Source: Rheinheimera sp.
Lineage (GTDB): Bacteria > Pseudomonadota > Gammaproteobacteria > Enterobacterales > Alteromonadaceae
DNA length: 64,000 bases
Reading direction: 5' to 3'
NCBI RefSeq assembly: GCF_030824435.1
Contig: NZ_JAVBXS010000016.1
Location: 1-64,000, forward strand
Positions 1,851 through 21,372 of the stretch are shown piece after piece. The stretch's first letter is position 1. Each line of letters starts with the position of its first letter. The position numbers were made by a program, and so were the translations under genes. A model generated the notes under the pieces. The model was not told where the DNA came from, made no database searches, and worked only from the letters and a program-made list of their open reading frames with translations.

Positions 1851-1879
1851 TTGAAGTAAATATTCTAAATCTTTAAGAT
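1851..1879 (+). promoter_or_regulatory. Predicted sigma-70 promoter of the candidate sRNA
   Basis: TTGAAG (1851-1856), a 17-base spacer and TAAGAT (1874-1879) form a good sigma-70 pattern on the plus strand. The start would fall near 1886. No plus-strand protein gene follows; the next plus-strand signal is the intrinsic terminator at 2030-2055. Confidence 0.55.
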
Positions 1880-1885
1880 ACGCAG

Positions 1886-2055
1886 GTGTTCTGAGCTAGC
1901 GCAACGGTGTAATACGAGGGTGTTTCACTGTAGTTGAGATCACAGAGTGGTTGGATTGATCGCAAGATAAATCGGATCGCTCAGCATGTTCCCTGGATTT
2001 TTGAAGTTCTACTTCAACTTGTTGCATTCGCCCGCTGTTTAGCGGGCTTTTTTTT
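1886..2055 (+). ncRNA. Candidate small RNA between ruvB and tolQ
   Basis: An orphan transcription unit of about 170 bases: a sigma-70-like promoter at 1851-1879 and a strong intrinsic terminator at 2030-2055, with no plausible coding frame (the longest plus-strand frame runs straight through the terminator). The flanking genes are on the other strand, so the terminator cannot belong to them. Possible structure: CTGAGC (1891-1896) pairs with GCTCAG (1979-1984) to close a domain; TTGAAGT (2001-2007) pairs with ACTTCAA (2011-2017) around a three-base loop; then the terminator hairpin. I do not recognise a known family. It has too few GGA motifs for CsrB and does not resemble Spot 42, RyhB, 6S or GcvB. 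Confidence 0.5.
2030..2055 (+). terminator. Intrinsic terminator of the candidate sRNA
   Basis: GCCCGCT (2030-2036), loop GTTT, AGCGGGC (2041-2047), followed by eight T residues (2048-2055). There is no U-run in the minus-strand direction, so it acts on plus-strand transcription only. Confidence 0.8.
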
Positions 2056-20952: not shown

Positions 20953-21029
20953 TGGTCGGTGATGCAAGATTCGAACTTGCGACCCCTTGGACCCAAACCA
21001 AGTGCGCTACCAAGCTGCGCTAATCACCG
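20953..21029 (-). tRNA. tRNA-Pro (anticodon TGG), copy 2
   Basis: A 77-base cloverleaf on the minus strand with acceptor CGGTGAT/ATCACCG, discriminator A and encoded CCA. The anticodon loop TTTGGGT gives TGG, reading CCA and, if modified by the CmoAB pathway in this window, other Pro codons. It is identical to the copy at 21296-21372 and is the last gene of the operon. Confidence 0.95.
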
Positions 21030-21070
21030 ACGACAGTTCCGATATTTACACAACTTGCTTCTGAACTGAT

Positions 21071-21146
21071 TGGGGTGGCTGATGGGGCTCGAACCCACGA
21101 CAACCGGAATCACAATCCGGGGCTCTACCAACTGAGCTACAGCCAC
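21071..21146 (-). tRNA. tRNA-His (anticodon GTG)
   Basis: Cloverleaf on the minus strand with acceptor GTGGCTG/CAGCCAC, anticodon loop TTGTGAT (GTG), discriminator C and encoded CCA. The base before the acceptor is G (21147), consistent with the extra G-1 typical of tRNA-His. Confidence 0.95.
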
Positions 21147-21182
21147 CACGGTATCAATTCACAACACAAGTCTTTAAGCGAG

Positions 21183-21259
<77 letters not shown>

Positions 21260-21295
21260 ATCAAGTGCAGTCACAGAGCGCATACCGCTTAAAGA

Positions 21296-21372
21296 TGGTC
21301 GGTGATGCAAGATTCGAACTTGCGACCCCTTGGACCCAAACCAAGTGCGCTACCAAGCTGCGCTAATCACCG
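21296..21372 (-). tRNA. tRNA-Pro (anticodon TGG), copy 1
   Basis: First gene of the tRNA operon and identical over 77 bases to the copy at 20953-21029. The promoter at 21402-21430 lies about 30 bases upstream. Encoded CCA is present. Confidence 0.95.

Follow-up and report, generated by a model that had tools for sequence, protein, structure and literature searches.

In the window (the 64,000-nt stretch of Rheinheimera sp. DNA analysed here), the gap between ruvB and tolQ contains a plus-strand unit whose neighbours, tolQ (767–1453), a tolR-like gene and ruvB (from 2150), all lie on the minus strand, as a preliminary description of the locus had stated. The unit opens with a -35-like hexamer TTGAAG (1851–1856) and, after a 17-bp spacer, a -10-like hexamer TAAGAT (1874–1879). 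It closes with an intrinsic terminator (2030–2055) consisting of a perfect 7-bp stem and 4-nt loop, GCCCGCT-GTTT-AGCGGGC (2030–2047), followed by eight T residues (2048–2055). Both the hexamers and the terminator are present in the sequence exactly as that description gave them. By our own count the hexamers share eight of 12 letters with the consensus, which places them under the threshold of the promoter scan. As the scan found promoter-like sites at chance level (10 against 9.5 expected), the hexamers alone carry no meaning. The terminator ranked second of 15 terminator-like sites in 6 kb, where 7.5 were expected. Upstream of the -35-like hexamer lies an inverted repeat, ATTATTTTTTCTAAT (1814–1828), which was left out of the span first described and is the feature most telling of function. 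Transcription starting at the position deduced from the -10-like hexamer would yield a plus-strand small RNA (sRNA) of approximately 170 nt (1886–2055). Mechanical open reading frames (ORFs) cross the unit on the minus strand (1896–2087) and the plus strand (1934–2164), but no small ORF is conserved across the 22 full-length RNAs of the genus. Elsewhere in the gap between tolQ and the putative sRNA, a 20-bp block (1489–1508) has an identity of 0.88 in the genus and probably represents the minus-strand promoter of tolQ.

A DNA search recovered the unit from 22 of 22 Rheinheimera genomes, with RuvB and TolQ flanking it in all 22. Within the genus alignment, the identity of 20-bp tiles was 0.60–0.98 over 1809–2048 and peaked at 0.91–0.98 in the tiles at 1849–1868, 1889–1908 and 1989–2048. 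Outside the unit it was 0.51–0.72 over 1569–1808 and 0.36–0.61 over 2049–2188, the latter values being lowered by unequal spacers to ruvB. The -35-like hexamer is kept across this alignment, a similar A/T-rich hexamer could be seen by eye at the place of the -10-like hexamer in relatives, and relatives keep the terminator with altered stem letters. An alignment of the ruvB–tolQ gap had been proposed as a check on the RNA, and it revealed conservation from promoter to terminator. The RNA, which had not been matched to a family by eye, also returned none when scanned. Rfam release 15 at the gathering score gave nothing in the window except four tRNAs, and no family in eight further loci, of which seven are carriers of the RNA. 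These tRNAs form a cluster on the minus strand of the window (20956–21372). Likeness to OmrA/B, rseX, anti-hemB, RyhB and other Rfam sRNAs is below threshold and, in the printed alignments, resides mainly in the terminator and the U-rich 3' end; membership of OmrA/B, rseX, anti-hemB or RyhB was rejected at 13–21 bits (bacterial sRNAs, this strand) against gathering scores of 40–55. The literature searched contained no title or abstract opening describing a ruvB–tolQ RNA. Judged from its sequence, this is a widely conserved RNA that is unnamed in the sources searched.

The predicted fold of 1885–2055 (171 nt) has an energy of -58.6 kcal/mol compared with -45.1 kcal/mol for shuffled sequences (z = -3.6, 0 of 200 shuffles as good), and the stretches of four relatives likewise fold better than their shuffles (z = -7.2, -5.4, -4.1 and -2.1). 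Covariation was assessed in an alignment, A1, of 22 distinct rows that remained from 24 after two duplicates were dropped. The 5' helix, formed by 1904–1909 with 1926–1931 (columns 19–24 with 43–48 of A1), contains changes on both sides in four of its six pairs, and a three-pair helix above it does so in three of three, with 79% of cells paired. Across the whole structure, covariation was 0.211 against 0.096 for shuffles that ignore kinship, with 0 of 500 as high. Slid versions of the structure reached at most 0.059, and on a measure that takes in further pair types 40 of 500 shuffles scored as high. Helices 1 and 4 are invariant in A1 and so uninformative on covariation. The preliminary description had proposed covariation as a check, and it was found for the 5' helix in a test blind to kinship. 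Two pairings had also been suggested there. CTGAGC with GCTCAG is neither maintained across the genus alignment nor part of the predicted fold. The TTGAAGT hairpin can be formed without any sequence change by each of the 22 full-length RNAs of the genus, and more distant relatives lack it.

Towards the 3' end, the core TTCCCTGGATT (1989–1999) is the probable seed region; it is largely unpaired in the centroid fold, and TTCCCTGGA varies little or not at all among 27 distinct sequences from many genera. The core is followed by a hairpin, TTGAAGTTCTACTTCAA (2001–2017), in place of which other genera have a C/U-rich, CTTCCTTCAA-like stretch. A conserved G/U-rich stretch, CTTGTTGCATT (2018–2028), in which TTGTT is invariant across the 27 sequences, may serve as a second pairing region.

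The 27 distinct sequences were used to build R1, a covariance model for the 3' core. Of 80 named ruvB loci, the model matched 33 at E ≤ 1.5e-4, with every match opposite ruvB. As 17 of these 33 loci had contributed sequences to R1, the scores of those 17 do not count as independent. The matched loci came from Rheinheimera, Alishewanella, Paraglaciecola, Bowmanella, Aestuariibacter, Idiomarina, Pseudidiomarina, Alteromonas, Marisediminitalea, Aliiglaciecola, Glaciecola, Pseudoalteromonas, Psychrosphaera, Thalassotalea, Thalassomonas, Neiella and a few others. No match at this threshold was found at the Vibrio, Photobacterium, Aeromonas, enterobacterial, Colwellia or Shewanella loci of the 80-locus set, and at the Colwellia and Shewanella loci the printed DNA downstream of ruvB resembles other genes. 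Four Aeromonas ruvB loci (L035, L038, L043 and L046) gave partial matches of 21–22 bits (E 0.05–0.06) at the same place and opposite ruvB, covering the 3' half only (model positions 36–70); being mostly terminator, these were not counted.

Among 99 genomes of the order, 15 were positive for the R1 model, made up of 6 of 6 genomes in family f1, 5 of 5 in f15 and 4 of 5 in f20. An assignment of f20 to Shewanella was rejected, as the RuvB of two f20 genomes is 100% identical to that of named Neiella loci; the RuvB comparison places Neiella within f20. In f15, the fetched 3-kb loci of all five genomes contain the unit without a RuvB or TolQ match, and they retain the promoter repeat with at most one mismatch (L146, L150, L152, L153 and L154), an arrangement that is read as a relocation of the whole transcription unit. 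A search of 369 genomes of the class produced five matches, three in f1 and two (L254 and L255) resembling terminators of coding genes. These two matches, from outside the order, were rejected: each lies just after the end of a coding frame, and no repeat at up to one mismatch occurs in its 300 bp of upstream DNA.

An independent sRNA gene is thus predicted at 1886–2055 and is strongly supported. The reading, already offered in the preliminary description, is backed by synteny across genera, conservation from promoter to terminator, the covarying 5' helix, the lack of a conserved ORF and the lack of an Rfam family. The features of the sRNA class that are present include a promoter, recognised by its conservation, and an intrinsic terminator with a long U tract. 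The 'Hfq-type' label would fit, given the U8 terminator and the hfq gene present in the genome. An 18-codon ATG frame does begin at 1986, with 18-codon frames at the same place in seven more of the 22; however, the frame is shortened to MFPGF and a stop in other members of the genus, the ATG is lost in Pseudoalteromonas and Alteromonas, and beyond the terminator comes the 3' end of an opposite-strand gene, so that a small-protein gene or a protein-gene leader is exceedingly improbable. The location in a gap between two minus-strand genes would also suit a cis element, in which DNA promoter and terminator features serve tolQ or ruvB and no functional RNA is made. This is very improbable in view of the covariation at the RNA level and of the five f15 genomes, all of which keep the unit and its promoter repeat (up to one mismatch) without RuvB or TolQ in their 3-kb loci.

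The inverted repeat upstream of the sRNA has the pattern ATTA-N7-TAAT and is centred at 1821, 65 bp before the start at 1886 implied by the -10-like hexamer. In an analysis of 150 gammaproteobacteria, the GcvA site is given as ATTAG-n5-CTAAT, which contains ATTA-n7-TAAT; relative to the gcvB start, the repeat IR1 has its centre at -65, as in E. coli, and IR2 at -43 (PMC5002191). The promoter of the new RNA resembles the GcvB type in both sequence and position, with a GcvA-type repeat (IR1) near -65. At up to one mismatch, the repeat was found upstream of the RNA at 62 of 62 loci, 49 of them exact, in a set that includes some near-identical pairs. These loci comprise 56 that were parsed over the 300 bp preceding the core (44 exact and all 56 with no more than one mismatch) and six taken from model matches (five exact and six within one mismatch). 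As background, the ruvB loci of the genus and of the named set, these promoters included, were cut into 2037 tiles of 300 bp, of which 56 held an exact repeat and 413 one within one mismatch. The Rheinheimera sp. genome itself holds 75 exact repeats in 3.92 Mb (approximately one per 52 kb), against 58 for a reversed control pattern. A second block, CAATTTTTCTCGTTTGA (1838–1854), overlaps the -35-like hexamer and is a candidate weak IR2 or activation site; its best match (up to six substitutions) begins 23–25 bp past the start of IR1 in 49 of 56 loci. Binding of GcvA at the RNA promoter is predicted and well supported by these sequences.

A GcvA orthologue was found in nine of nine genus genomes examined, with 67–69% identity to the enterobacterial protein, and the same repeat recurs at gcvT and, in part, at gcvA. 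Of 19 genus genomes searched for gcvT, one had no match, and the remaining 18 loci all carry an exact repeat 175–355 bp upstream of the gene; outside the genus this was the case in three of seven loci. The two gcvT sites printed share the flank TTCGC with the sRNA promoter repeat. Upstream of gcvA, the repeat begins 40–45 bp before the gene in five of nine genus genomes. The other four, which include that of Rheinheimera sp. (L127–L130), have gcvA close behind another gene and without an upstream repeat, which suggests loss of autoregulation. A second exact ATTAG-N5-CTAAT repeat lies 505–692 bp before gcvT in 16 of 18 genus loci, with one further locus at one mismatch and one with none. In the sequences printed it falls inside the upstream coding frame (contig C60, 5884–5898, in the Rheinheimera sp. 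genome; L205), and it is possibly a coding coincidence or else an intragenic GcvA site.

GcvB is among the best-studied global sRNAs. The GcvB model (RF00022) has no match in the window at the gathering score, nor within 1700–2200 up to an E value of 10, and none of the 37 genomes of Rheinheimera's family passes the GcvB cut-off. Sub-threshold matches in the family, of 26.9–31.3 bits, occur at 12 places in 10 of the 37 genomes, one of them in the Rheinheimera sp. genome on another contig; five of the 12 were inspected, this one included, and were rejected as GcvB because they resemble coding ends with terminators. Among the 99 genomes of the order, the GcvB cut-off was passed by 21 and the new RNA was present in 15, with no genome in both groups, a pattern of exclusion that tracks families and so represents few independent evolutionary events. 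GcvB matches below threshold occur in three genomes that carry the RNA, at 38.2 (G036), 28.8 (G065) and 28.0 bits (G080). All 12 GcvB loci examined in other families have the repeat upstream with at most one mismatch (three exact), 11 of the 12 being over the cut-off, and a gcvA-like ORF adjoins four of four over-cut-off GcvB loci examined, and also L105. In Rheinheimera sp. the RNA is on contig C79 and gcvA on contig C100, so that the two do not adjoin. The G/U-rich R1 element of GcvB, with its ATGTTGTGTTTGCA-like core, is present in most of the over-cut-off GcvB matches printed and is absent from the new RNA on reading its sequence and alignments.

Both systems share a GcvA-type repeat at about -65, an intrinsic terminator and an sRNA of 150–200 nt, with a GcvA orthologue and a gcvT site in the same genomes. 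They differ in that the new RNA lies away from gcvA, gives no covariance-model match, lacks ATGTTGTGTTTGCA and occurs in other bacterial families; its conserved core is instead UUCCCUGGAUU and CUUGUUG, unlike that of GcvB. Because the covariance model, the R1 element and the linkage to gcvA all fail for it, the RNA was not classed as GcvB. Our best guess, by analogy, is that it would work like GcvB, yet by sequence, model and locus it falls outside the GcvB family. The new RNA presumably resembles ArcZ (SraH) in its CCCUGG-type seed, but is distinguished from it by having no Rfam match, by its place at ruvB/tolQ and by its GcvA-type promoter. As a separate observation, a locus of family f16 (L116) has a sub-threshold GcvB-like match of 30.6 bits, upstream DNA that by eye looks like a GcvA promoter, and an adjoining LysR-type gene unlike gcvA, and is possibly a third kind of RNA.

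Taken with the promoter, these comparisons make it quite probable that the locus encodes a GcvA-controlled and probably Hfq-dependent, trans-acting sRNA, approximately 170 nt long, that takes over the place of GcvB in a family with no canonical GcvB detected. The same promoter architecture, the GC terminator that ends both RNAs and their mutually exclusive distributions in the 99 genomes would also suit a reading in which the RNA is no separate one but a strongly diverged GcvB orthologue that has left its position beside gcvA. Set against this are the lack of any Rfam GcvB match up to an E value of 10, a degree of divergence at which such descent is indistinguishable from replacement, together with the absent ATGTTGTGTTTGCA-like core and the different locus, and we regard a diverged orthologue as unlikely, if still worth serious consideration. 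LysR-type proteins share T-N11-A operators. A conserved Hfq-type sRNA could accordingly answer to another LysR-type protein that reads ATTA-N7-TAAT and be unrelated to glycine, which would agree with the 19 matches to the GcvA query in the Rheinheimera sp. genome and with its gcvA lacking the repeat. Occurrence of the same repeat before gcvT (18 of 18), before gcvA (five of nine) and before GcvB of other families (12 of 12, up to one mismatch) argues for GcvA itself, as does the -65 position, which equals that reported for gcvB (PMC5002191), and control by another LysR-type protein appears distinctly improbable.

For the preferred GcvA-controlled sRNA, the steps that we infer are transcription, GcvA binding and the direction of its control, Hfq binding and the targets. 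In one published account, gcvB is activated by GcvA at high glycine (PMC3658693). By analogy to gcvB, the LysR-type GcvA would, when glycine is plentiful, bind at 1814–1828 and activate the promoter. The RNA would then be transcribed to its U8 terminator, Hfq would probably bind its 3' end, and UUCCCUGGAUU and CUUGUUG would pair with mRNAs and lower their translation, the targets presumably being mRNAs of amino-acid, peptide or one-carbon metabolism. On a broader proposal we are close to undecided and lean slightly towards doubt, namely that GcvA keeps an ancient sRNA circuit in the GTDB family to which Rheinheimera and Alteromonas belong, as well as in two neighbouring families, but that the RNA body, the locus and probably the seeds have been replaced by those of a different RNA. 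If true, a global sRNA would have undergone non-orthologous replacement while its transcriptional control was conserved, and the same regulator acting through another RNA body would show evolutionary rewiring of sRNA networks. The RNA would be a candidate regulator of amino-acid metabolism in marine and freshwater relatives of Alteromonas, and it would bring a new RNA family for which there is a clear first hypothesis.

Complements of two core stretches were searched for in the Rheinheimera sp. genome. One gave seven matches (control 1) and the other, AATGCAACAAGT at up to one mismatch, gave 51 in the whole genome against 28 for a reversed control pattern. Among 37 of these loci (all seven and 30 of the 51), two of which are the RNA itself, no convincing target at a start region was found. 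One of them (L165), in a metH-like operon, contains a perfect 12-nt complement of the CUUGUUG region over an internal start codon, and other pairings were weak. At 17 start regions of the AGCS glycine/alanine symporter, duplex energies were unselective and no pairing was kept among relatives; one AGCS pairing (L228) looked good alone and was rejected, as by eye it is not maintained in relatives.
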